Origin: Burkholderiaceae bacterium
GTDB taxonomy: Bacteria; Pseudomonadota; Gammaproteobacteria; Burkholderiales; Burkholderiaceae_E
Reading direction: 5' to 3'
Assembly (NCBI GenBank): GCA_021166725.1
Contig: JAJPES010000010.1
Location: 1 to 61,834, forward strand
Length of the DNA: 61,834 nucleotides
Part shown: one piece after another, positions 3,247-31,922 of the stretch
How the letters are laid out: every line of letters starts with the position of its first letter
Position numbering within the stretch: position 1 is the first letter of the stretch
Position numbers and translations under genes: made by a program
Notes under the pieces: model-generated
What the model was told of the DNA's origin: nothing
The model's database searches: none
What the model saw: the letters and a program-made list of their open reading frames with translations, nothing else

Positions 3247-4473
3247 TCAGCGCGTCCCCAGCACCGCGAAGTCCGACCGCTCGAGCAGCAGCGAGACGAT
3301 CACTCCCGCCACCAGCCCCCAGAATGCCGCGCCCACGTTGAAGATCGCCAGGTCGGTGACGGTGACGAGAAAGGTGACCAGTGCGCCGAGCGTGAAACGC
3401 CCACCGAAGGAAGTGACGAAAGCGACCTGCAGCACGCGCAGCATCGCCAGCCCGGCCAGCGTGGCGATGAACGCCGGCGGCGTGGCGAGCATCAGCCGCG
3501 TGAAGAACGGCGACAGCAGCCCGAAGGCGAGCGCCAGCGCGCCGACCACGATGCCGCCCGTGTAGTGCCGTTCGCGTTCGCCCGCCGACGAGATGATCGC
3601 GTTCGTGGGTCCGGTCAGGCAGGTGGAGACGGTGCCGACGAAAGCGGTAACGATCGAGCCGACGCCGCAGGCGAAGGTCGCTGCGTTGATCGGCGCAGCG
3701 TGTCCCGCCGCCTGCAGCACGGCGACGCCCTGCCCGTTCTGCACGACGAGCACGGTGACGACCAGCGGCAGCACGAGTTCGACCATCGCCTGCACCGACC
3801 ACTCGGGCGCGTACAGGTTCGGGTGGGCGAGCACGCTTGCCGCCGACAACTCGGGCGTGAAGCGGCCCGACAGCGCGACGGCGATCGCGCCGACGACGAG
3901 CGCGCCGAGCATCGGCGGCATGCGCTTGCCGAGCCGCGGCGACGCATTGAGCAGCAGGAAGGCGATCACCATCGGCGCCGCGACGGCGGCATCGTCGTGC
4001 AGCGAGCGCACGAGGTCGGTGCCGAAGCGCAGGAACACGCCGGCCACCATGCCCATCACGATCGGCATCGGCACCGCCGCCATCGCGCGCCGCACCCAGC
4101 CGCTCAGGCCCAGCAGCAGCATCACGACGCCCGACGCGACGAAGGCGCCGATCACCTGCGGGAAACTCAGGTGATCGAGTGCGGGTCCGACGAGGACGGT
4201 GCCCGGAATCGTCCAGAAGAACGCCAGCGGCTGCCGGTACAGCCAGCAGAACAAGAGCGTGATCAGGCCGTTCAGGAAGAAAGCGCCGAAGATCCACGAC
4301 GCGAGGTCCGACTCCGACAATCCACCGCGCAATCCCACCGAGAGAATCACCGCTACCGGCCCGGTGGCGGCGAAGATGAAGCCGATCAGTCCGTTGACCG
4401 CGTAGACGGTTCCGGAATCTCGCAGCAGGTCGCGCCAGCGTGTGTGCGGCCGGAGGGGGGCTTCGAGCGGCAT
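3247..4473 (-). CDS. benE: BenE-family benzoate/H+ symporter
   Basis: A hydrophobic protein of about 408 residues with roughly a dozen membrane segments, matching the BenE family of proton-coupled benzoate importers in the inner membrane. Family-like stretches include YAVNGLIGFIFAATGPVAVI near the N terminus and FWTIPGTVLVGPALDHLSF after the third membrane span. A TTG at 4500 would add nine residues; the ATG at 4473 is preferred because it brings the start next to the conserved region. It stands alone between the debranching enzyme and oxyR. Benzoate import would fit the 4-hydroxybenzoyl-CoA reductase genes at 33.6-37.5 kb, which feed benzoyl-CoA metabolism, but no benzoate-activating gene is in view. 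Confidence 0.85.
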   Translation of the reverse strand: MPLEAPLRPHTRWRDLLRDSGTVYAVNGLIGFIFAATGPVAVILSVGLRGGLSESDLASWIFGAFFLNGLITLLFCWLYRQPLAFFWTIPGTVLVGPALDHLSFPQVIGAFVASGVVMLLLGLSGWVRRAMAAVPMPIVMGMVAGVFLRFGTDLVRSLHDDAAVAAPMVIAFLLLNASPRLGKRMPPMLGALVVGAIAVALSGRFTPELSAASVLAHPNLYAPEWSVQAMVELVLPLVVTVLVVQNGQGVAVLQAAGHAAPINAATFACGVGSIVTAFVGTVSTCLTGPTNAIISSAGERERHYTGGIVVGALALAFGLLSPFFTRLMLATPPAFIATLAGLAMLRVLQVAFVTSFGGRFTLGALVTFLVTVTDLAIFNVGAAFWGLVAGVIVSLLLERSDFAVLGTR

Positions 4474-4548
4474 CGCGCGAAATGGTACGCGACGCCGCAA
4501 GCGTCGTCGCCGCTCCTTCGCGCCGAAGTCGCCACGGAACGCGTCGCG

Positions 4549-5490
4549 TCACCGCGACTTGCGCGATGCGTGGCCGGTCGAGGCGTGCGGAGCGAGCCCG
4601 GCCGACACCTCGGCGAGGAACTCGAACTCCTCGACGCGCGTCGTGCTCGTACGCGCCACCAACGCGATGCGCCGGGTGGGCACCGGCGGCGCGAAACGCT
4701 TCGGCAACACCGACGCGCCGGACAGCAAGCCCGAGTCGATCGCCATCTGCGGCAGCAGCGCGTCGCCCAGCCCCGACTCGACCATCTGCACCAGCGTCAC
4801 CAGGCTCGTCGCCTCGATGCCCGAGGCGTTGGCGCGCTCGGCCAGGCCGCAGGCCTCGATCGTGTGCTCGCGCAGGCAGTGTCCTTCCTCGAGCAACAGC
4901 AGCCGCTCGGGGTCGAGATTGCTGATCTTCGGACGCCGCGAGCTTTCGCGCTCGTCACCGCGCATCGCGCTGATCAGCCACAGTTCCTCGACGAAGAGCT
5001 CGCGCACGAGCAGGCCCCGCGTGTCGTAGGGCAGAGCGATCAGCGCGAAATCGAGTTCGCCGCGGCGAAGCCGCTCGAGCAGCGTTGCCGTGCGGTCTTC
5101 GCGCAACACGAGTTCGAGGGCGGGATGCGAAGCGCGCGTCCTGCGAACCAGCCCCGGCAGCAGGAACGGGGCAATCGTCGGGATCGCCCCGAGGCGCACC
5201 ATGCCGGTCATCGGAGCAGCGCAGGCGCGTACGAGCCCGACCAGGTCGCGCGCCGCGCCGAGCAGCGCGCGGCTGCGCTCCACGACCTTCTCGCCCAGCG
5301 GCGTCATGCGTACCGACTGGCGGTCGCGCTCGACCAGGCGCGCGCCCAGCGCGGTCTCGAGCTCCTTCAGGCCGGACGACAGCGTCGACTGGGTCACGAA
5401 GCAGTCCTGCGCGGCCTGCGTGAAGTTCAGCCGCTCGGCGACCGCGACGAGGTACGCGAGCTGGCGCAGCGACGGGAGCGCGTTGGACAT
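4549..5490 (-). CDS. oxyR: OxyR, LysR-type hydrogen peroxide sensor
   Basis: A 313-residue LysR-type regulator. The winged helix-turn-helix occupies residues 5-65 (LRQLAYLVAVAERLNFTQAA, then STLSSGLKELE). The C-terminal sensor domain has EEGHCLREHTIEAC, in which two cysteines nine residues apart match the redox pair (Cys199/Cys208) of E. coli OxyR. Peroxide forms a disulfide between them and turns on defence genes. It is transcribed divergently from the rubrerythrin operon with a 121-bp intergenic region, so rubrerythrin, rubredoxin and the reductase are likely targets. The two cysteines make OxyR much more likely than a generic LysR protein. Confidence 0.9.
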   Translation of the reverse strand: MSNALPSLRQLAYLVAVAERLNFTQAAQDCFVTQSTLSSGLKELETALGARLVERDRQSVRMTPLGEKVVERSRALLGAARDLVGLVRACAAPMTGMVRLGAIPTIAPFLLPGLVRRTRASHPALELVLREDRTATLLERLRRGELDFALIALPYDTRGLLVRELFVEELWLISAMRGDERESSRRPKISNLDPERLLLLEEGHCLREHTIEACGLAERANASGIEATSLVTLVQMVESGLGDALLPQMAIDSGLLSGASVLPKRFAPPVPTRRIALVARTSTTRVEEFEFLAEVSAGLAPHASTGHASRKSR

Positions 5491-5519
5491 GGGAAGCCGA
5501 AGACGCGATATCGAGTTAA

Positions 5520-5533
5520 TCGATCTACATCAA
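5520..5533. promoter_or_regulatory. FNR/CRP-like palindromic site in the oxyR-rubrerythrin intergenic region
   Basis: TCGAT-CTAC-ATCAA matches the FNR consensus TTGAT-N4-ATCAA at nine of ten positions. It sits in the unusually AT-rich 121-bp gap between divergent oxyR and the rubrerythrin gene, 79 bp upstream of the rubrerythrin ATG. Oxygen-responsive control of a rubrerythrin would be sensible. No convincing -10 hexamer lies at the expected class II distance, so this is tentative. Confidence 0.35.
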
Positions 5534-5611
5534 AGTAATAATTCGTTGGATCGATTGTACGCGCTGACCGACACTTCGCTCGCACGATACAACCCGAAGC
5601 GGAGAACCAGG

Positions 5612-6106
5612 ATGAACGGCAGGTCGATCACGATCCGGAATCTCGAGTCGGCTTTCGCCGGCGAGTCGATGGCGCACATCAAGTACCGGTACTTCGCGCG
5701 CGTGGCCCGCGCCGCCGGCGACGAGGAGACGGCGCGGCACTTCGAGGCCACCGCCGAACAGGAGGTGCAGCATGCCTTCGGCCACCTCGACCTGCTGTAC
5801 CCGGCGGGCAAGCTCACCCCGGCGCGCGCGCTCGAACTGGCGATCGAGGGCGAAACCTACGAGTACACCGAGATGTATCCGAAATTCCGCCACCTGGCCA
5901 TCGAGGAAGGCAACCAGGCAGCGGTGGCCGAATTCGACGAGCAGATCGCCGAATCGAAGGAGCATGCCGACGCGTTCCGCGCGGTGCTCGAGAAGGCCGC
6001 CAGGCGCTTCGCCGCGCTGACGAAGGTCGAGCACAAGCACGCGAACGCGTATCGCGAGGCGCTCGAGCGGGTGAATGCGGCAGCGAAGGCGACCGAAGCC
6101 GCTTGA
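5612..6106 (+). CDS. Rubrerythrin-type di-iron peroxidase without rubredoxin domain
   Basis: A 164-residue ferritin-like four-helix protein. The di-iron ligand pattern is visible as two ExxH motifs, EQEVQH at about 50-55 and ESKEH at about 112-116, plus helix glutamates in FAGES and EGETYEY. Rubrerythrins reduce hydrogen peroxide to water in the cytoplasm of anaerobes and microaerophiles. The usual C-terminal rubredoxin domain is absent: there is no CxxC in the protein, and it ends in an alanine-rich helix. A separate rubredoxin follows 96 bp downstream, so electron donor and peroxidase are split. The ATG at 5612 is used; GGAG lies 11 bases upstream of it (GGAGAACCAGG). Confidence 0.88.
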   Translation: MNGRSITIRNLESAFAGESMAHIKYRYFARVARAAGDEETARHFEATAEQEVQHAFGHLDLLYPAGKLTPARALELAIEGETYEYTEMYPKFRHLAIEEGNQAAVAEFDEQIAESKEHADAFRAVLEKAARRFAALTKVEHKHANAYREALERVNAAAKATEAA

Positions 6107-6202
6107 AGCGACAGCGGCGCGGCGGGGAGCGGAAACGCCGCCCGGGCCGCGCGCATCCAACGAAACACCGACCGACATACCACACGGGAAACGGAGAACG
6201 AC

Positions 6203-6373
6203 ATGAAGAGCTGGCAATGCATCGTCTGCGGTTTCATCTACAACGAGGCCGACGGTCTGCCCGAGGACGGGATCACCGCCGGAACCCGCTGGGAGGACAT
6301 CCCCGACGACTGGTCCTGCCCCGACTGCGGCGTGGCGAAAGCCGACTTCGAGATGATCGAGATCACTGCCTGA
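6203..6373 (+). CDS. Rubredoxin
   Basis: A 56-residue rubredoxin. It contains the paired iron-binding motifs CIVCG (residues 6-10) and CPDCG (39-43) separated by the typical acidic segment [20 protein letters not shown]. Rubredoxin carries single electrons on one Fe(Cys)4 centre. It lies between the rubrerythrin gene and a rubredoxin-reductase-like flavoprotein, which together make a complete NAD(P)H-to-peroxide chain. The ATG is preceded by GGAGAACGAC. The stop is 8 bp before the reductase start. Confidence 0.93.
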
Positions 6374-6381
6374 GCTGCACG

Positions 6382-7539
6382 ATGAGCGATCCGATCGTCG
6401 TCGCCGGCAGCGGATTGGCCGGCTATACGCTGGTGCGCGAGTTGCGCCGGCTCGACGCTTCGACGCCGATCGTCGTCGTCACGCGCGACGACGGAGCGAT
6501 CTACTCGAAGCCGATGCTGTCGAACGCGCTCGCCGCCGGCCGCACGGCGGCAACCCTGTCGACGGCCGACGCCGCCGGCGCCGCGGCGCAATTCGGAGCG
6601 ACCGTGCTCGCGGGCCAGCGCATCGAGTCGATCGACGCAGCAGCGCGCACGTTGCACCTCGCGAACGGCGAGCGCATCGCCTACCGGGCGCTCGTGCTCG
6701 CGCTGGGCGCCGATCCGATCCGCGTCCCGCTGGAAGGCGCCGGTGCCGCGGACGTGCTGACGGTGAACGACCTCGCCGACTACGCCCGCTTTCGCATGGC
6801 GATCGAGGCGGCCAGCGACGTTACCATCCTCGGTGCCGGCCTGATCGGCTGCGAGTTCGCCAACGATCTTCGACTGTCCAAGCGCAGCGTGCGCGTCGTC
6901 GAGCCCGCCGCCTGGCCGCTGGCGCGACTCGTGCCGCAGGCGGTAGGCGACGCTTTCGCCCAGCGCCTGCGCGAAGCCGGCGTCGAACTGCTGCTCGGGC
7001 AAGCCGCGACGTCGATCGTGCGGCGCGAAGACGGCGGATGCCGCGTGAGGCTGACCGGCGACGCATCGATCGATACCGGCGTGGTGCTGTCGGCGATCGG
7101 CCTGCGGCCGCGCACCGCGCTCGCTGCAGCGGCCGGCCTGCGGACGAATCGCGGAATCGTCGCCGATCGGTCGCTGCGCACGAGCGACCCGGCAATTTAT
7201 GCGCTGGGCGACTGCGCCGAGGTCGACGGACTGGTGCTGCCCTTCGTGATGCCGCTGATGCACGCGGCGCGCGCGCTCGCGCGCACCTTGTCCGGCGACG
7301 AAACGCGCCTGCGTTATCCGGCGATGCCGGTCGTCGTGAAGACGCCGGCAGCGCCGCTGACGGTTGCGCCGCCGCCGCCGGGCGCCAGCGGCGCCTGGGA
7401 GTGTGTCGATGCCGCCGATGGCAGCCTCGAAGCGTCGTTCGTCGACGCGCACGGAAAGCTGCTCGGCTTCGCGCTGCTCGGCGGCACGCCTGCCGCACGA
7501 CAGGCGCTCGCTCGGCGCCTGCCGGCCGTCCTTGACTGA
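6382..7539 (+). CDS. FAD-dependent rubredoxin reductase
   Basis: A 385-residue pyridine nucleotide-disulfide-oxidoreductase-fold flavoprotein. The FAD Rossmann motif is at residues 5-11 (VAGSGLAG), the NAD(P)H motif GAGLIGCEFAND is at about 153-164, and the second FAD contact IYALGDCAEVDG is at about 273-284. This matches rubredoxin/ferredoxin reductases. A C-terminal domain of about 75 residues (DGSLEASFVDAHGKLLGFAL) is typical of the NADH:rubredoxin reductase group. The gene follows rubredoxin by 8 bp, so its partner is clear from context. It probably passes NADH electrons to rubredoxin and on to rubrerythrin under OxyR control. Confidence 0.88.
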   Translation: MSDPIVVAGSGLAGYTLVRELRRLDASTPIVVVTRDDGAIYSKPMLSNALAAGRTAATLSTADAAGAAAQFGATVLAGQRIESIDAAARTLHLANGERIAYRALVLALGADPIRVPLEGAGAADVLTVNDLADYARFRMAIEAASDVTILGAGLIGCEFANDLRLSKRSVRVVEPAAWPLARLVPQAVGDAFAQRLREAGVELLLGQAATSIVRREDGGCRVRLTGDASIDTGVVLSAIGLRPRTALAAAAGLRTNRGIVADRSLRTSDPAIYALGDCAEVDGLVLPFVMPLMHAARALARTLSGDETRLRYPAMPVVVKTPAAPLTVAPPPPGASGAWECVDAADGSLEASFVDAHGKLLGFALLGGTPAARQALARRLPAVLD

Positions 7540-7592: not shown

Positions 7593-8168
7593 TCAGAACG
7601 GCCGCACGCCGATCAGCGGCCCGTGCAGGTACATCGCGAAAACGTACCAGGCAACCGTGCCGACGACCACCGACGTGAGGTCGTTGCCCCAGACGCCGCG
7701 CCGCTGCACGCCCCCGGCTCGATCGCGCCGGCGCGACGCGACGAAATCGATCGTCGACCAGACGAGGAAGGCACCGAACAGGACGAGGTCGGCCGCGCCG
7801 GCGTTGGCCAGCAGATGCGCCAGCGACCACAACGCAACACCGAGCAGCATCGGGTGCCCGATGAGCGCGCGCAGGCGGCTGCGCGGAACGTAGGCGGCGA
7901 CAATCAGAATGAAGGCGACCAGCGTCAGCGGCGAGGCAAGGTGCCGCGACCAGGTCGGCGGCGCCCACAGCGGCGCGCCCTGGCTCGCACGCGCCAGCCC
8001 GTAGCCCCAGACGACCAGCGCGAGTCCGATCAGCGAGACGAGCGAATACAGGCCCTTCCAGCGGCCCTCTCCCATCGACTCGATGCGCTCGCTGCGCCAG
8101 CCGTCGGCGACCAGCCGCACCGAGTGCGGACCGAGGAACAGGAGCAACCCCACGACGAGCACGACCAT
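7593..8168 (-). CDS. NnrU family membrane protein
   Basis: A 191-residue integral membrane protein with about five or six hydrophobic segments. Its N terminus (LLFLGPHSVRLVADGWR) and GHPMLLGVALWSLAHLLANA in the middle are characteristic of NnrU. NnrU was first noted near nitrite and nitric-oxide reductase genes and resembles isoprenylcysteine-methyltransferase-fold membrane proteins. Its biochemical role is not settled, and no denitrification gene lies nearby. It is convergent with the reductase gene and divergent from carbonic anhydrase with an 80-bp gap. Confidence 0.8.
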   Translation of the reverse strand: MVVLVVGLLLFLGPHSVRLVADGWRSERIESMGEGRWKGLYSLVSLIGLALVVWGYGLARASQGAPLWAPPTWSRHLASPLTLVAFILIVAAYVPRSRLRALIGHPMLLGVALWSLAHLLANAGAADLVLFGAFLVWSTIDFVASRRRDRAGGVQRRGVWGNDLTSVVVGTVAWYVFAMYLHGPLIGVRPF

Positions 8169-8248
8169 GATTCGCCTCCCCGAGCCTGCGCTGCCGGAAG
8201 GCTACCCGATGCGCCGGCAGCACGCCGCGATTCGTCGGATAATGGGTG

Positions 8249-8896
8249 ATGCGCGTACTTCAACCGCTGTTCGAAAACAACCGCGAGTGGTCCGAGCGCC
8301 TGCGTGCGTCCGACCCCGAGTTCTTCCAGCGCCTGTCGCGGCAGCAAAGCCCGAAATATCTGTGGATCGGGTGCTCCGACAGCCGAGTGCCGGCCAACCA
8401 GATCATCGGATTGCCGCCGGGCGAGGTCTTCGTGCATCGCAACGTCGCCAACGTGGTCGTGCATACCGACCTGAACTGCCTGTCGGCGCTGCAGTTCGGC
8501 ATCGACGTACTGCAGGTCGAGCACGTGATGGTGGTCGGCCACTACGGTTGCAGTGGCGTGCGTGCGGCGCTCGACCAGCAGCGCATCGGCCTTTCCGACA
8601 ACTGGCTCGGTCATGTGCGCGACGTCGCCGAACGTCACGAGGCGCGCATCCGGCCGCTGGCGCGCGACCTCGAACGGGCCAACCGGCTGTGCGAGCTGAA
8701 CGTCATCGAGCAGGTGCGCAACGTGTCGCGCACGACGATCGTGCGCGACGCCTGGACTCGCGGCCAGAAGCTGTCGCTGCACGGCTGGGTGTACGGCTTG
8801 TGCGACGGCCTGTTGCGCGACCTCGACGTCACTGCGCAGAGCCTCGACGAATGCAACGAACGATACCAGGCCGCGCTGCAGGCGTTGCAGCCGTGA
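8249..8896 (+). CDS. can: Beta-class carbonic anhydrase
   Basis: A 215-residue beta-carbonic anhydrase that interconverts CO2 and bicarbonate in the cytoplasm. The zinc ligands are recognisable in GCSDSRVPANQ (first Cys and the Asp-Arg dyad at about 42-46) and in VVGHYGCSGV (His and second Cys at about 98-101). The length matches E. coli Can. A GTG three bases upstream (8246) could also start translation. Bicarbonate supply is relevant to the biotin carboxylase genes elsewhere in the window, but there is no direct linkage. Confidence 0.93.
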   Translation: MRVLQPLFENNREWSERLRASDPEFFQRLSRQQSPKYLWIGCSDSRVPANQIIGLPPGEVFVHRNVANVVVHTDLNCLSALQFGIDVLQVEHVMVVGHYGCSGVRAALDQQRIGLSDNWLGHVRDVAERHEARIRPLARDLERANRLCELNVIEQVRNVSRTTIVRDAWTRGQKLSLHGWVYGLCDGLLRDLDVTAQSLDECNERYQAALQALQP

Positions 8897-8912
8897 GGTC
8901 CGTCCCCGTCGG

Positions 8913-10217
8913 ATGAAAGTCCTCGTCGTCGGCGCCGGCGTCGTCGGCGTCACCACCGCGTACTTCCTCAGCCGCCAGGGATTCGAGGTCGTCGTCGTGG
9001 ACCGCGGCCAGGAACCGGCCTCGGAAACGAGCTTCGCCAACGGCGGCCAGATCTCGGTGAGTCATGCCGAGCCCTGGGCTAACCCCAAGGCGCTGCAACG
9101 CGCGGCGCGCTGGCTGCTGCGCGCCGACGCGCCGCTGCGCGTGCGGCTGCGCGCCGATCCGCGCCAGTGGGCGTGGCTGGCCGGTTTCGCGCGCGAATGC
9201 ACGAACGAGCGCACGCAAAGCAACATCGGCGAGCTCGTGCGGCTCGGCACTTACAGCCGGAAAGTGCTGCAACTGCTGCGCAGCGACACCGGCATCTCTT
9301 ACGACGAACAACTGCGCGGCATCCTGCATTTCTACACCGACGCGCGCGAGTTCGACGCCGCGCACGAGCCCGCGCGTCTGATGCGCGAGTTCGGTTGCGA
9401 GCGCAGCATCGTCTCGGTGGACGAGGCGGTCGCGATCGAGCCGGCGCTGCGCCCTGCCCGCGCCTTGCTGGTCGGCGCCACCTTCACGCCGGCCGACGAG
9501 TCGGGCGATGCGCACGCGTTCACCGTGCAGCTCGCCCGGCTGTGTCGCGCAAGCGGCGTCGAGTTCCGCATGGGACGGCAGGTCACCGCCCTGCACGCGA
9601 GCGGCGGGCGTATCGACCACCTGGAGACGATCGCCCCGGACGGCGGCTACGAGACGATGCGCGCGCAGCGCTACGTGCTCGCTGCCGGCAGCTTCAGTCC
9701 GCTGCTCGCCGCGCCAGTGGGCATCCGGCTCGCCGTCTATCCGGCCAAAGGCTATTCGGTAACGATGCCGGTGCGCGACGCGGCGCGCGCCTACCAGGTG
9801 TCGCTGACCGACGACGAGCGCAAGCTCGTCTTCTCGCGGCTCGGCGATCGCCTGCGCATCGCCGGTACGGCCGAGCTGGCCGGCTATGGCCGCGCGCTCG
9901 ACCTGAACCGCTGCCGAGCCATCCTGCGCCGCATCGAGCAGCTGATGCCTGGCGCCGGCGACACCACGGCCGCCACGTTCTGGTCCGGGCTGCGTCCGTC
10001 GACGCCGTCGAACCTGCCATACGTGGGCGGCACGCAGCTGCCGAACCTGTTCCTGAATACCGGACACGGCACGCTGGGATGGACACTGGCTTGCGGATCG
10101 GCGAAGGCGCTGGCCGACCTGATCGCCGGTCGCCAACCGGATGTCGATTACGCGTTCTGCGGGCCGGCGCCCGTCAGCGGCAAGTCCAACGTCGTTCCCG
10201 AGACGATCTCGTCATGA
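8913..10217 (+). CDS. dadA: D-amino acid dehydrogenase (small subunit)
   Basis: A 434-residue FAD enzyme of the DadA group. The dinucleotide-binding motif VLVVGAGVVGVTTAYFLSRQ opens the protein. FANGGQISVSHAEPWANP, YPAKGYSVT and the C-terminal GHGTLGWTLACGSAKALADL are diagnostic DadA segments. It oxidatively deaminates D-amino acids, chiefly D-alanine from racemised L-alanine, and passes electrons to the membrane quinone pool. No alanine racemase (dadX) is adjacent. The gene follows carbonic anhydrase by 16 bp and overlaps the next gene by 4 bp (ATGA), so it is co-translated with the metallo-beta-lactamase-fold hydrolase. Confidence 0.92.
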   Translation: MKVLVVGAGVVGVTTAYFLSRQGFEVVVVDRGQEPASETSFANGGQISVSHAEPWANPKALQRAARWLLRADAPLRVRLRADPRQWAWLAGFARECTNERTQSNIGELVRLGTYSRKVLQLLRSDTGISYDEQLRGILHFYTDAREFDAAHEPARLMREFGCERSIVSVDEAVAIEPALRPARALLVGATFTPADESGDAHAFTVQLARLCRASGVEFRMGRQVTALHASGGRIDHLETIAPDGGYETMRAQRYVLAAGSFSPLLAAPVGIRLAVYPAKGYSVTMPVRDAARAYQVSLTDDERKLVFSRLGDRLRIAGTAELAGYGRALDLNRCRAILRRIEQLMPGAGDTTAATFWSGLRPSTPSNLPYVGGTQLPNLFLNTGHGTLGWTLACGSAKALADLIAGRQPDVDYAFCGPAPVSGKSNVVPETISS

Positions 10218-11266
10218 AAACCGCAGAAAAGCCGCTGGATGTCCCGTCCTACCCTTTCGACGCCGCACCACGACACGGATCGGCGGTCGAAGTCCGGCGC
10301 GGGCTGCTCTGGATGCGCAAGCCGCTTCCGCCGCCGCTGTCGCACATCAACACGTGGGCCATAGACGACGGCGCCGGTTGGGCCGCCGTCGATACCGGAC
10401 TGCAGAGCCCGGAGACGGCAGCCGCGTGGTCGGAAGCGATCGCCGGACCGCTCGGGCAGCGGCCGATCACGCGCGTGTTCGGCACGCACATGCACCCCGA
10501 TCATATCGGCATGGCCGGGTGGCTGACGCGCCGCTTCGATTGCCGGCTGTGGATGACACGGCTCGAATACCTCACCTGCCGAGTGCTCGTTGCCGACACC
10601 GGTCGCGAGGCGCCGCTCGAAGGCGTCGAGTTCTACCGGCGCGCCGGCTGGGACGACGACGCGATCGACCAGTACCGGGCCCGCTTCGGCGGATTCGGCA
10701 AGGCCGTCTACCGATTGCCGGACAGCTACCGGCGCATCGTCGACGGCGAGCGCGTAGCGATCGGCGAGCACGAATGGGTCGTCGTCGTCGGCAGCGGGCA
10801 TTCGCCCGAGCACGCGAGCCTGTACTGCGCCGAACTGCGCGTGCTGATCTCGGGCGACCAGGTGTTGCCGCGCATCTCGTCGAACGTCTCGGTGTTCCCC
10901 ACCGAGCCCGACGCGGACCCGCTCGGCGACTGGTTCGATTCGCTGGCGCACTTCGAGCGCACGGTACCCGACGACGTACTGGTGCTGCCGTCGCACAACG
11001 AGCCGTTCACCGGCCTGCATTCGCGCCTGCGCTCGCTCGAGCACGGGCACCAGCGCGGACTCGACCGGCTGAGGAAGTCGCTCGCCGAACCGCGGCGCGT
11101 GGTCGACCTGTTCGGCGCGCTGTTCGCACGCAACGTCTATGCCGACCCGCACCTGCTGGGGATGGCCACCGGCGAATGCATCGCACACCTGAACCATCTT
11201 GAGCGGCGAGGCGAAATCTCGTCGGACGCCGACGAGCACGGAGTCGCCTGGTATAGCCGGCGCTGA
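10214..11266 (+). CDS. Metallo-beta-lactamase-fold hydrolase
   Basis: A 350-residue MBL-fold enzyme. Metal ligands appear in THMHPDHIG (the HxHxDH motif at about 94-99), GSGHSPEH and SGDQVLP. The C-terminal quarter, a helical region with HGHQRGLDRL, is typical of MBL proteins of about 350 residues whose substrate is unassigned. It overlaps dadA by 4 bp, indicating a two-gene operon. Possible roles include hydrolysis of a thioester or of a product of amino-acid turnover; nothing in the sequence decides. Confidence 0.8.
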   Translation: MKTAEKPLDVPSYPFDAAPRHGSAVEVRRGLLWMRKPLPPPLSHINTWAIDDGAGWAAVDTGLQSPETAAAWSEAIAGPLGQRPITRVFGTHMHPDHIGMAGWLTRRFDCRLWMTRLEYLTCRVLVADTGREAPLEGVEFYRRAGWDDDAIDQYRARFGGFGKAVYRLPDSYRRIVDGERVAIGEHEWVVVVGSGHSPEHASLYCAELRVLISGDQVLPRISSNVSVFPTEPDADPLGDWFDSLAHFERTVPDDVLVLPSHNEPFTGLHSRLRSLEHGHQRGLDRLRKSLAEPRRVVDLFGALFARNVYADPHLLGMATGECIAHLNHLERRGEISSDADEHGVAWYSRR

Positions 11267-27582: not shown

Positions 27583-29049
27583 ATGAACGAACCCATTGCC
27601 GCCATCGCCACCGCGCCCGGACGCGGCGGGATCGGTGTGGTTCGTGTTTCCGGTCGCGCGCTGGAGCCTCTGGCCGGCGCCGTTCTGCGGCGCTCGCTCG
27701 CGCCGCGCCATGCCAGCTACGGTTCCTTTTTCGCCGACGATGGTTCGGTGATCGATCGCGGCATCGCGATCTTCTATCCGGCGCCGCATTCGTACACCGG
27801 CGAGGACGTGCTCGAGTTGCAGGGGCACGGTGGACCCGTCGTGTTGCAGTTGCTGTTGCGGCGCGTGCTCGACGCAGGCGCCTCGATCGGCGTGCGGCTG
27901 GCCGAGCCCGGCGAGTTCACGCAGCGCGCGTTCCTGAACGACAAGCTGGATCTCGCGCAGGCCGAGGCTGTGGCCGACCTGATCGACGCGAGCACCGAGC
28001 AGGCGGCGCGCTCGGCGGCGCGCTCGCTGTCGGGCGAATTCTCCGACTCGGTGCACGCGCTGGTCGAAGGCCTGATCGCGCTGCGCACGCTGGTCGAGGC
28101 GACGCTCGATTTTCCCGAGGAGGAGATCGATTTCCTCGAGGCGTCCGACGCGCGAGGGCGCTTGGCCACGCTGCGTTCCTCGCTCGACGAGTTGCTCGCG
28201 CGGGCGCGTCGCGGCGCGTTGCTGCGCGAGGGGTTGAACGTCGTGTTGCTCGGAGAGCCGAACGTCGGCAAGAGCTCGCTGCTCAATGCGCTGTCCGGCG
28301 CCGAAGTCGCCATCGTCACCGAGGTGCCGGGGACGACGCGCGACCGCATCGCGCAGGCGATCCAGATCGAAGGAGTTCCGCTGAACATCGTCGACACCGC
28401 CGGGCTGCGCGACACCGAGGACGTCGTCGAGCGGCTGGGTATCGCGCGCACCTGGCAGGAGGCGGGCAGGGCGGACGTCGTCGTGCATCTGCTCGATGTG
28501 CGGGACGGCGACGCAGCGGGTGCGGCGGCGATCGAAAACGAACTCGAAGGGATACTCGCGCGACGCGTGCCGATCGTGCGGGTGCACAACAAGATCGACC
28601 TGGTGGGCGCGCAGCCGCGCGTCGAGCGTGCGACTTCGTCGCGCGGCGAGCTGAACCGCGACGGGGGGACGCGCGGGGAGCGCGCGCCGCACGGGGCGAA
28701 GCAGGGCGCCGCGTCGCTTCCCGGACGATCAATGGAGGCGTCGATCTGGCTGTCGGCGAAGACCGGCGAAGGCATTGCGCTGTTGCGCACGCTGCTGCTC
28801 GAACTCGCCGGCTGGCAGTCGGACGGCGAGTCGACGTTCATGGCGCGCGAGCGGCACCTGGTTGCGTTGCGCGCGGCGCGCGAGCATCTCGAAGCGGCAT
28901 CGATGCGAGCCGATGCGGGCGATCTTCAGCTCGATCTGTTCGCCGAGGAATTGCGGTTGGCGCAGGAGCGGCTGAACGAGATCACCGGGGAGTTCGGGGC
29001 GGACGATCTGCTGGGGGTGATCTTCAGCAGGTTTTGTATCGGGAAGTAG
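27583..29049 (+). CDS. mnmE: tRNA uridine-34 modification GTPase MnmE (TrmE)
   Basis: A 488-residue GTPase that with MnmG makes the 5-carboxymethylaminomethyl modification of wobble uridine. The N-terminal tetrahydrofolate-binding domain begins [20 protein letters not shown]. The G domain has P-loop [14 protein letters not shown] (about 225-238), [14 protein letters not shown] and SAKTGEG. The C terminus ends FCIGK, providing the zinc/formyl-binding cysteine. An extra glycine- and arginine-rich insert of about 35 residues (about 347-383) lies between NKID and SAKTG, making the protein longer than the usual 450 or so. A 195-bp gap separates it from yidC. Confidence 0.96.
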
Positions 29050-29075
29050 GTCGAGGCCCTTTGCGGGGACTCGAC
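29050..29075. terminator. Stem-loop between convergent mnmE and the helicase gene
   Basis: GTCGAG and CTCGAC pair as the stem base, with CCC/GGGG above them, around a short TTTGC loop. It begins immediately after the mnmE stop. No U-tract follows on either strand, so it would be an atypical terminator at best. Confidence 0.35.
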
Positions 29076-29116
29076 GATGCCCGCGCATTGGCTTCGTCGT
29101 AGTCGTCGATAGTCGG

Positions 29117-31555
29117 CTATCGCTCCCGCAGAACCATCAACATCTCGGCGACGACTGCAAGACTTTCTTCGGCGTCTTCCACCTCCAGGACGATCGGCTC
29201 GAATTCCGGCCGGTCGGAATCGGGGTGCAGCGTGATTCGCCGATGTCGCCAGCCGCCGTCCGCCACGGGTACCTTTTCGCTCGAGTAGACCTTGATTGTG
29301 TATTGCCCTCCGGTCTCCGGGTCGTCGATGCTGCGATGCTGCACCACCACGACCTTGCCTTCGCGCGTTCCCGTGGGGTTCGCGCGGAACAGGCACCACG
29401 CTCCGCTGGGGATGCGTCGGTTCATCGATTCGCCCACGACCTGCGCAACGAAGAGGCCGGGTTGCAGAGACACCGTGTCGGGCAATTCGACCCAGTCGGT
29501 GGCCTCTGGTTCCACCGTCTGCGGATCGGAGAACGCGCCGGCGGCGAAGCGAAGGTCCCAGACCGGCACCGCGGCCATGCCCGCCCTGCGCTCGGCGTTC
29601 GAGACCCGGCGGAGCGGAATCACTTTCGACGTTTGCGGCCACGCCGCCGTTGTCGCTGCCGGGCGCTCCTCTCCCGCGTCGGGCAACTCGCTGGTCGACC
29701 GTAGCCGTCCACGCAAATAGGCCGCCAGCGGTTCATCGGTGCAGTACACGTAGCAACCCTTGATGCCGCGGGTCATCAACGTGCGGTACGTGTTCTTGAT
29801 GATCGCGTCGGCCAGCCTGCGAGCGCGGTCCGGATCGTCCTTCAGCATTTGCTTCAGGCCCCGGATCGACCGGTCCGATGGCGCGCGCTTCGCGACGTCC
29901 GTGACGATGCGTCCATCGCGGTAGACGAGATCCGGACCGATGATCACGCCGACGTAATCCAGCTCCAGCCCCTGACAGGTGTGTATGCAGCCCACCTGTT
30001 CCACGGACCCGGGCGTCACGATCCAGAGACTGCCGTCCTTGTCTAGGTTCCACCGGCGCCGGTAGTCGAACGCCGGCAGCTCGATGTCCCAGGCCAACGC
30101 GTTGCGCTTGCTCGGCCATGACCAGCAGTACCCGGCGACGACGCGCGAACGGTTGTCGGCGCGATTCTTCCGTCTGATCAGGTCGTGCAACTCGGCAGGG
30201 CTGTCGAAGACACGAAAGTCGAACTCGTCGGTGTCGAACATGTTGTTCGCGGTGGCGCGGATATCGAGCGTGTCGTCGAGCCACGCCAGATAGCCGTCGG
30301 CCCCGTTGCAGCGAAACTGCGACGAGAGTTCGAGCTCGGTCACCTCGGCGTCGAGCTCACGCGCACAGGTGCGCAGTTCTTCGGTGTGTCCGATGTCGTC
30401 CACGGTCACACGCTGATCGTCGTCGACGAAGAACACGGTGCAGCGCGCCGAGCGGATCAGTTCACGGACCTGGTTGTCGCCCAGGTTGCGGTACAGGCCG
30501 CTCTTTTCGTTGAGGCGGTGTGCTTCATCGACGATCAGCGCGTCGAAAGTGTCGGGCGCGTCGTCGACGAAGGCGCCCGAACCGCTGAACAGATTGCCGA
30601 TCCGCGTCCTGGTGAATGTGCCGGCGAGCCGGGCTTCGTAGACTGCGCGCGGCGCTGCGTTCTTGGATACGTAGCGCGCATTTCGCCGGCGCTGGACGAG
30701 CGTACCGAGGAGGTTGACGGCGACCACGGATTTCCCGGTCCCCGGTCCTCCCTGCACGATGATGACCTGCTTGCGCTGTTCCGATGCTGCTTCGACCTGC
30801 AGGATGGTTTCGTAGACGACCTTCTGGTCGTCGATCAACACGAACTCGGGCTTGCCTTGTAACAGGCCTGCCACCGCGTCGGCCAGCATCCTGGATGGCC
30901 GAATCTGTCCGTGCTCGATCGTGTAGAGCGCGCCTCGGCGGTCGCCGTATCGCACATGCTTGCGGATGAACGCCTGTAGCTTGGCGCGTTCGCGGGCGAG
31001 AAACAGCGGCGCACGCTCGATGTGCTCGCGATAATGGGGATGATCGATCTCGCCGTCGCGCGGGTGGTTGTGCAGGTACGCGCAGGGCTGCAATCTCATC
31101 GTGCCTTGCTGCACCGATTCGTTGAAGTCCTCCAGGTAGGCGGCGTAGGACCATGCCTGGTACGAAGGATGCAGCCCCTCGGTTTCGCCCGAGCGACCGC
31201 CGCGCCGCGCCCACAGGACCGCATCCTTTTCGCTGCGGCGGGACTGTGACCATTGCTTGAGTTCGACGATCACCACTTGCGTGCGTGCGGCGGCGTCTTC
31301 TCCGGTTATCACGAAGTCGATGCGCCTGGAGCTCTGCGGCAATTGATACTCGATGGCTACGCCGGCGTCGGACGGAATCTCCTCGTCCTGCAGCACCTTG
31401 GCCATTTCGAGCAGCGAGTGCTTCCAGGCCTGGATCTCGGAAGGACCGGCGCGGTGGCCCATGCGATCGAGAAACTGGCGTGAAACGATCTCCTCGATGT
31501 CGTCGCGTAGCGCGTGATGGAGGAACTGGCTCTTGTCGGCCTGATAGATGATCAC
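29117..31555 (-). CDS. PD-(D/E)XK-like nuclease / DUF2075 helicase / LexA-type S24 peptidase fusion
   Basis: An 812-residue three-part protein starting at GTG. Residues about 60-130 hold a PD-(D/E)XK-like pattern, RRIDFVI (Asp80) and VVIVELKQW (Glu98, Lys100). Residues about 230-620 form a superfamily 1-type helicase of the DUF2075 group: Walker A GGPGTGKS (269-276), Walker B IVDEAHRL (Asp343, Glu344), FVDDDQRV, SSQFRCNG and CQGLELDYVGVIIGP. Residues about 660-812 resemble the C-terminal half of LexA/UmuD: a potential self-cleavage site FAAG (between Ala672 and Gly673), Ser710 in VVGESM and Lys755 in YTIKV. The Gly-to-Ser distance (37) is close to that of LexA (34). A MazG-like gene lies 10 bp upstream. 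The exact function is unknown. Confidence 0.75.
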   Translation of the reverse strand: MIIYQADKSQFLHHALRDDIEEIVSRQFLDRMGHRAGPSEIQAWKHSLLEMAKVLQDEEIPSDAGVAIEYQLPQSSRRIDFVITGEDAAARTQVVIVELKQWSQSRRSEKDAVLWARRGGRSGETEGLHPSYQAWSYAAYLEDFNESVQQGTMRLQPCAYLHNHPRDGEIDHPHYREHIERAPLFLARERAKLQAFIRKHVRYGDRRGALYTIEHGQIRPSRMLADAVAGLLQGKPEFVLIDDQKVVYETILQVEAASEQRKQVIIVQGGPGTGKSVVAVNLLGTLVQRRRNARYVSKNAAPRAVYEARLAGTFTRTRIGNLFSGSGAFVDDAPDTFDALIVDEAHRLNEKSGLYRNLGDNQVRELIRSARCTVFFVDDDQRVTVDDIGHTEELRTCARELDAEVTELELSSQFRCNGADGYLAWLDDTLDIRATANNMFDTDEFDFRVFDSPAELHDLIRRKNRADNRSRVVAGYCWSWPSKRNALAWDIELPAFDYRRRWNLDKDGSLWIVTPGSVEQVGCIHTCQGLELDYVGVIIGPDLVYRDGRIVTDVAKRAPSDRSIRGLKQMLKDDPDRARRLADAIIKNTYRTLMTRGIKGCYVYCTDEPLAAYLRGRLRSTSELPDAGEERPAATTAAWPQTSKVIPLRRVSNAERRAGMAAVPVWDLRFAAGAFSDPQTVEPEATDWVELPDTVSLQPGLFVAQVVGESMNRRIPSGAWCLFRANPTGTREGKVVVVQHRSIDDPETGGQYTIKVYSSEKVPVADGGWRHRRITLHPDSDRPEFEPIVLEVEDAEESLAVVAEMLMVLRER

Positions 31556-31565
31556 GACCGTGCGC

Positions 31566-31922
31566 TCAGAGTTCGTCGTACTTCCTGCTGTTGCCGCGAG
31601 CGCGATCGACCGGATACCGCAGCTCGTTGCGCTCCAGCTTTTCCTGCGCCGCGTGGATGGGGTCGATGCCGAGAGCGCTCGATAGCTGGATCAGATACAG
31701 CAGGACGTCTGCGACCTCGTCGGCGACGGCACCGCGTTTCTCCGGCGCGAGCGATCGGCTTTGCTCTTCGGTCATCCACTGGAAGTGTTCCAGCAATTCG
31801 CCGGATTCGACGACGAGGGCCGATGCGAGATTCTTAGGCGAGTGGAATCGCTGCCAGTCGCGCTCCCGCGCGAACCGGTCGAGTCGAAGAGCGAGATCGT
31901 GCAGGGAATCGGTGCTTTCCAT
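31566..31922 (-). CDS. MazG-like nucleotide pyrophosphohydrolase
   Basis: A 118-residue all-alpha NTP pyrophosphatase. The metal-binding pattern ExxE followed by ExxD is visible in LVVESGELLEHF and ADEVADVLLYLIQLS. Enzymes of this group hydrolyse NTPs or dNTPs to the monophosphate and pyrophosphate. ATG 31922 is chosen because AGGAGG lies 7 bases upstream; the frame extends further without support. The stop is 10 bp from the GTG of the nuclease-helicase-peptidase gene, so the two are one operon. A nucleotide-depleting or nucleotide-sanitising partner would fit a stress or anti-phage role. Confidence 0.85.
   Translation of the reverse strand: MESTDSLHDLALRLDRFARERDWQRFHSPKNLASALVVESGELLEHFQWMTEEQSRSLAPEKRGAVADEVADVLLYLIQLSSALGIDPIHAAQEKLERNELRYPVDRARGNSRKYDEL

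Follow-up and report, generated by a model that had tools for sequence, protein, structure and literature searches.

What purpose is served by a protein that carries a nuclease, a helicase and a LexA-like S24 domain on one chain, beside a gene for a nucleotide pyrophosphohydrolase? The question is raised by a two-gene locus in a 61,834-nucleotide stretch of DNA from a Burkholderiaceae bacterium (contig JAJPES010000010.1, assembly GCA_021166725.1; the whole stretch is called the window here), in which a MazG-like gene lies upstream of the gene for an 812-residue protein, 10 bp apart and both on the minus strand. A preliminary description made from the sequence alone had taken the pair for an antiphage or DNA-damage abortive system whose nuclease-helicase is held inactive or localised until self-cleavage, with MazG limiting nucleotides; our analysis partly supports that interpretation. 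The larger protein is a fusion of a PD-(D/E)XK-like nuclease, a Schlafen-group-3/UvrD-like superfamily 1 (SF1) helicase and a LexA-fold S24 domain. The locus is most likely a two-gene module for defence, composed of a restriction-like DNA nuclease-helicase and a dCTP-pyrophosphatase-type enzyme; the overall best explanation, in which a LexA-type self-cleaving cassette would also disarm the enzyme, stands at about even chances.

The architecture first described was borne out by Pfam, alignment and the LexA fold. The 812-residue protein matches SLFN-g3_helicase (PF09848, DUF2075) with E 1.1e-105 and 354 bits against a cut-off of 24, and its Walker A and DEAH motifs are in place, as in Schlafen group 3 and SF1 helicases; in structure comparison of the predicted model the helicase fold lies near UvrD and RecD2. 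The nuclease region carries the D...(D/E)xK site of PD-(D/E)XK nucleases together with a weak, sub-threshold NERD match, and the fold-comparison rows, which mostly cover residues 136-620, hold little information on it. At the C terminus the Peptidase_S24 match (E 7e-5, residues 664-741) is 0.3 bits short of its cut-off; the S24 fold, the Ser-Lys dyad and the Ala/Cys-Gly site are all present, and the predicted fold overlays the LexA and CI of RecA-filament complexes (8gms, 8gmu), a likeness of fold only. The 118-residue partner matches the MazG-like family PF12643 (E 3.9e-15) and has the ExxE and ExxD acidic residues of MazG and dCTP pyrophosphatase. No NCBIfam model came close to any cut-off in a scan of the two proteins, and the PADLOC matches of the larger one are partial and confined to its helicase part (best PDC-S41, E 1.7e-16; AbiO and Nhi over residues 237-417, E 2.2e-11 and 3.6e-11); a named PADLOC or NCBIfam system was rejected because none matches the full length. 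The fusion is present in a single copy in the assembly (3.57 Mb, 88 contigs, 89% complete).

Features of the two-gene locus, with window coordinates and the evidence for each
Feature	Position	Strand	Basis
Nuclease-helicase-S24 protein (P0001), 812 amino acids, GTG start	29117..31555	-	Open reading frame, Pfam, alignment, fold
PD-(D/E)XK-like nuclease region, N-terminal, residues ~1-215, edge approximate	30911..31555	-	Conserved residues; weak NERD match
Nuclease residues D80 to K100	31256..31318	-	Alignment
SF1 helicase, Schlafen group 3, residues 262-607; Walker A K275, DEAH 343-346	29735..30772	-	
Linker from helicase to S24, residues 622-643, low confidence	29627..29692	-	pLDDT <50
LexA-like S24 domain, residues 662-811	29123..29572	-	Pfam, profile, fold
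Predicted scissile bond Ala672-Gly673	29537..29542	-	Alignment
Ser710, S24 dyad	29426..29428	-	52/52 rows
Lys755, S24 dyad	29291..29293	-	52/52 rows
MazG-like nucleotide pyrophosphohydrolase, 118 amino acids, dCTP-pyrophosphatase type	31566..31922	-	Pfam, acidic residues, PDB profiles

To place the protein among its relatives we scanned genome contigs, which confirmed at least 232 relatives; 80 loci were kept, all locus counts rest on these, and together with the window they form an alignment of 81 rows in which split genes are represented by their largest piece. (Loci, genomes and contigs are denoted L, G and C.) The homologues fall into 76 clusters at 90% identity and, by record titles, come from Burkholderiales, other Pseudomonadota, Planctomycetota, Acidobacteriota, sulphate-reducer groups, Verrucomicrobia, Kiritimatiellota, Omnitrophota and Bacteroidota. 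The helicase residues K275, D343, E344 and H346 are kept in 81/81 rows and the nuclease residues D80, E98 and K100 in 78/81, the remaining 3 being gapped. An S24 region is present in 52 rows and absent from 29, two of which (L018, L043) end at contig ends; the 27 uncut homologues that lack it are 610-648 amino acids long (median 620). A671, G673, S710 and K755 occur in all 52 S24-bearing rows, so that the predicted conservation of the S24 residues held throughout, and at position 672 Ala stands in 38 rows and Cys in the other 14. In LexA/CI and UmuD the residue before the cleaved Gly is likewise Ala or Cys. Chance matches to a motif would not be expected to stay invariant across phyla in this way, and the S24 domain is probably a LexA-type self-cleavage switch. 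Some helicase genes (G049:C314, G092:C67, and G052:C82/C171) appear as pieces, which are either in two reading frames of the same contig or divided between contigs.

The pairing with MazG also recurs. Scored by script wherever at least 450 bases lay upstream or a match was present (three loci lacked the room), a MazG gene stands directly upstream in 59 of the 77 assessable loci, across phyla: in 37 of 48 S24-bearing loci and in 22 of 29 short homologues. Its acidic residues are invariant among those aligned (E39 and E42, 62/62; E69 and D72, 63/63). The pair occurs on a Halalkalicoccus archaeal plasmid, on a Priestia plasmid and in a Microcystis phage record (L095); among six annotated plasmid or phage regions, MazG adjoins the helicase in L093, L095 and L096 and does not in L091, L092 and L094. 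The PDB profile matches of the window's MazG-like protein begin with the pyrophosphatase 4qgp (E 1.9e-33), followed by dCTP pyrophosphatase 1 (E 9.5e-32), and by these profiles the partner is of the dCTP-pyrophosphatase (RS21-C6/DCTPP1) type, a relationship from which we guess dCTP or modified dCTP to be its substrate. The earlier proposal that MazG limits nucleotides has to be refined: as the partner is of DCTPP1 type and the SauUSI-type version described below has an unrelated NUDIX hydrolase, cleaning of the pool or removal of modified deoxynucleotides (dNTPs) is no less likely than starvation.

A further gene was observed beside some of these pairs. A TPR-type protein of ~550-680 amino acids, clustered from 11 loci with Pfam run on two members, is encoded directly upstream of the MazG-like or nucleotide pyrophosphohydrolase gene (L041 5726-7393, L042 5864-7678, L072 5680-7674, L075 5687-7678, L092 20215-22269, L095 3629-5647), and it is a possible third component. 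The TPR-MazG pair of L092 stands apart from the helicase, and in L095 (Microcystis phage Mwe-JY31, 3629-7863) the TPR-cluster, MazG-like and short helicase genes are consecutive and all annotated as hypothetical.

Is the S24 domain peculiar to this module? We searched whole genomes with S24-domain profiles (A1, later A6), in sets that partly overlap from one search to another. Matches at E≤1e-6 were found in 9/274 genomes of the class, six of them at 156 bits or more and three at 28-32 bits (open reading frames of 180-256 amino acids). At E≤1e-12 they occurred in 5/398 genomes of the phylum, 7/74 of the family, 22/377 in the phylum of G787 and 10/385 in the phylum of G784 (carriers from the last two phyla not newly read were G1468:C15, G787, G781 and G784), and at E≤1e-15 in 1/2 genomes in the order of G300 and 11/296 in the phylum of G798. 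Because matches reach down to 53 bits in another phylum, the boundary of the subfamily is not sharp.

The domain recurs at the C terminus of other proteins, with the Ser-Lys dyad kept. Nine proteins join GIY-YIG to a Schlafen helicase (L109, L120, L121, L184-L188, L192), all except L120 with MazG directly upstream; L184 and L188 exceed the GIY-YIG Pfam cut-off of 22.6 bits, L109 (22.2) and L120 (18.6) fall below it, and the other five were assigned by similarity to L109. Four proteins are of the SauUSI type, PLD-helicase-DUF3427 (L189, L190, L191, L193), and upstream of every one lies a NUDIX gene; three were scanned with Pfam, and L191 is nearly identical to L189. The other hosts are HsdR (L108, with hsdM and hsdS; L183, with hsdM; the HindI-like L256; weakly L239), type III Res with an endonuclease domain (L250), AlwI type (L238), HsdS (L243), HNH (L246), a TnsA-like protein matching slightly below its cut-off (L248), other ResIII helicases (L247 and L257; L240 and L260 by similarity), DEAD with MZB (L241), and methyltransferase-HNH (L032; L244 and L251 by similarity). 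Seven carriers have no assigned host: L242 (272 amino acids), L110, L236 and L245 (short or cut), L258 (196 amino acids), L252 (169 amino acids) and L091 (split frame). L032 encodes a methyltransferase-HNH protein (4279-6567) and a nuclease-helicase (8001-10388), both S24-bearing and 1.4 kb apart. In L259 (5249-9307) a free-standing S24 gene of 164 amino acids is flanked on both sides by SauUSI-like genes, the second of which is followed by a NUDIX gene.

In a host-wide alignment of 111 rows (110 matches, repeats included, plus the window; L236, L239, L252 and L258 left out), the Ser is present in 110 rows, the fragment L245 being the exception, and the Lys in 111. The P1' Gly is aligned in 108; L245 begins too late, and L032 has its A-A-G shifted in the alignment. 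In 86 of these 108 rows the last three residues of the predicted N-terminal fragment are hydrophobic-Ala-Ala or Ala-Ala-Ala. A tree of 55 of the 111 rows (L245 and L091 omitted, PD-(D/E)XK rows thinned to 23) requires 18 changes for its 18 host labels, the minimum plus one, against 30.9 in shuffles, some labels denoting free-standing, cut or unknown proteins and not true hosts. The host types are mostly clustered, interspersed among the PD-(D/E)XK Schlafen rows, which alone require 6 changes, 4 of them forced; the SauUSI-type and GIY-YIG S24 domains share one starred clade (100/95), and those of AlwI and HsdS are sisters (99/89). L250, L251 and L110 are long branches whose individual placements are unsure. 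Because the host proteins belong to unrelated families, the S24 domain must have become attached to hosts on more than one occasion. These comparisons suggest a transferable cassette on many DNA-cutting enzymes, not special to the MazG-paired module. Put in full, one LexA-like cassette would have been grafted repeatedly onto unrelated DNA-cutting defence enzymes, including restriction-type enzymes assigned by Pfam to types I-IV, as a cut-out responsive to DNA damage, a self-contained restriction alleviation with no need of the host's SOS regulon; on the Schlafen and SauUSI types it would usually be accompanied by a nucleotide pyrophosphohydrolase, for which two unrelated folds occur. This we advance tentatively, at a little under even chances.

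The distribution and neighbourhood of the locus point to defence. The helicase is present in 10/101 genomes, its own included, and in 5/18 genomes of the genus; the S24 domain occurs in 4 of the same 18. Versions of the helicase adjoin mnmE in the window and in two other genomes: G016 has a full-length version, 82% identical, and G012 a short one, 52% identical, with MazG, and in G005 the neighbour of mnmE is the type I restriction enzyme HsdR (PADLOC E 5.3e-177). Because these contents differ between related genomes, HsdR in G005 included, the downstream side of mnmE is a variable site able to hold defence genes. At window positions 29049-29117 and at the mnmE loci of the genus, this variable site lies near replication origin genes; in the other genomes read, the window genes beyond the helicase locus were not found at the mnmE site. 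The window itself shows no apparent defence island, only the mnmE site, and the enrichment near defence genes that had been foreseen was found around homologous loci. There, 100 flanking proteins of 14 loci match 59 PADLOC families at E≤1e-20, against 3 for 100 control proteins; families and not proteins are counted, one protein can match several, and 25 of the 59 are listed. The 100 flank proteins were drawn from 108 (eight of the outermost ones in L001, L006, L007 and L011 left out) and the controls from 122 (L157, L158 and L165 entirely and the last three of L171 left out). Controls cover 11 of the 14 genomes, and two share a contig with the locus; five control stretches proved not to exist, and L168, which lay at the locus itself, was excluded. 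PADLOC matched two of nine further neighbours, HsdR in G005 and SspH in L014. Recurrent neighbours, by Pfam, include Fic, HNH, HIT, Mrr, NO VEIN C-terminal, TPR and DUF3427-helicase proteins, and relatives occur on plasmids and in a phage record. A search for HsdM close to the loci, made with two single sequences and of too low sensitivity to be used, recovered one of the queries and nothing else. N6_Mtase was found in 23 of the 50 genomes searched (of the 80 loci), on contigs that are not linkable to the loci and hence give no distance measure. In L014 (5323-15902) the S24 nuclease-helicase is followed by same-strand genes, the last of which encodes an SspH protein (PADLOC E 0).

We propose that the nuclease-helicase loads on foreign DNA, perhaps modified or replicating, translocates and cuts, giving the module its presumed anti-phage effect. 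Damage to host DNA, whether or not the enzyme is its cause, would give rise to a signal, for example the RecA filament, that induces cleavage at A672-G673; RecA is the candidate trigger because LexA and CI work in this way. IrvR is on record as an exception to RecA triggering (PMC7101444). The cut at 672/673 falls between the helicase and the S24 core, so that cleavage would separate the S24 domain and leave a fragment ending Phe-Ala-Ala. ClpXP recognises tails such as those of cleaved LexA and ssrA. The fragment could thus be taken by ClpXP and the enzyme disarmed or degraded. The probable role of the pyrophosphohydrolase is to clear away dCTP or its modified forms, which would starve the phage or else leave host DNA free of modified bases; a nucleotide step is suggested by the hydrolase partner because two unrelated folds, MazG and NUDIX, fill its place. 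That the switch disarms the enzyme after host damage, as a built-in restriction alleviation, is an evenly balanced proposition. A brake is plausible because enzymes that cut DNA at entry need one once host DNA is damaged or unmodified, and we moderately favour disarming because this single logic covers all hosts.

Several observations weigh against this explanation. The would-be product, residues 1-672, resembles the S24-less homologues, so cleavage could equally free an active enzyme, and 29 of the 80 loci, the contig-cut L018 and L043 included, have no S24 in the row used. Eighteen of 108 predicted tails are AAC, which is not degron-like; the scissile site deviates in L251; and a 196-residue open frame in L258 (3808-4398) lacks A-A-G although both its Ser and Lys motifs are present, whether as a decayed copy, through a frame change or as a non-cutting relative. 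Hosts beyond the Schlafen and SauUSI types number one to four examples each. Among assessable loci, 18/77 were scored without a directly upstream MazG: in L038 it is adjacent, beside a split helicase gene, in L055 and L079 it is present elsewhere, and in the other 15 the MazG profile found none within the stretch read. Nor was a MazG match found in the stretch read of G016, whose version is the nearest relative at this site, and 7 of the 9 further neighbours gave no PADLOC match. Plasmid-induced alleviation of EcoKI was independent of SOS activation (PMC11109961).

The close rival to disarming, doubtful in our estimate, is activation: the S24 domain would restrain the nuclease-helicase until phage-induced damage brings about self-cleavage and frees the active enzyme, as UmuD is converted to UmuD'. 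The cut after the helicase would indeed leave a protein near the length of the natural short homologues, which pair with MazG as well; activation is hard to fit, however, with S24 on HsdS and on ordinary restriction subunits that have to work as soon as DNA comes in (HsdR, type III Res, AlwI type). S24 on such ordinary subunits, the SauUSI type among them, fits disarming at least as well as the activation first proposed, and disarming is, moderately, our first choice. Somewhat more doubtful is a real switch with a trigger other than RecA, such as DNA translocation or an anti-restriction protein, which is compatible with either direction; the SOS-independence of EcoKI alleviation favours it, and the overlay of the predicted fold on filament-bound LexA and CI, as a likeness of fold, tells against it. 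It is improbable that the S24 domain no longer cuts and serves for dimerisation or docking: the LexA C-terminal domain also dimerises, and self-cleavage is here a prediction from sequence and fold, yet the Ser, the Lys and the scissile Gly persist in host proteins that are unrelated to one another. A housekeeping repair helicase, to which the UvrD- and RecD2-like fold might point, is very improbable in view of the patchy presence, the defence-rich flanks, the plasmid and phage-record relatives and the presence of versions of it, or in G005 of an HsdR, on the mnmE side, and no characterised housekeeping role was found in the open-access literature searched.

Every part of the module is of a known kind; the pair, the fusion and S24 on restriction enzymes are apparently new, none of the three having been found in the open-access literature searched. 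The S24 domains of LexA, UmuD and lambda CI belong to a helix-turn-helix repressor or a polymerase subunit, whereas here the domain is fused to DNA-cutting enzymes. One E. coli defence survey counts PF09848 among abortive-infection (Abi) proteins, and MazG and S24 do not occur in its available text (PMC10121019); similarly, LexA and S24 do not occur in the accessible portion of a 2025 restriction-modification review. The type IV enzyme SauUSI, as far as the excerpt describes it, has the same PLD-helicase-DUF3427 order as the three S24-bearing proteins scanned; it ends in DUF3427, whereas they add S24 and an upstream NUDIX gene (PMC3874153). Type I enzymes are braked by ClpXP (PMC11109961, PMC12707154), and EcoKI alleviation is likewise a proteolytic control of a helicase-nuclease that spares the host; there the protease is external, whereas in the present case a self-cleaving domain would be part of the enzyme. 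The partner resembles dCTP pyrophosphatase 1 (RS21-C6) in profile, but here the gene adjoins a defence-type nuclease.

How restriction enzymes spare their own host after DNA damage is understood for a few type I systems, with outside proteases among the means. A self-cleaving domain shared by many types of restriction and defence enzyme would, if true, be a general and testable answer, would tie defence directly to a DNA-damage signal and would offer a sequence handle for damage-coupled defence enzymes; if instead activation is true, it would be a new way of arming a nuclease solely when infection occurs. A second testable question, that of modified nucleotides, arises from the recurrent association with dNTP hydrolases. 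Cleavage, if shown on two or more hosts, would make the module a new kind of regulation, and the recurrence of the domain on many unrelated restriction-type enzymes suggests a transferable safety switch for enzymes otherwise able to damage their own host.

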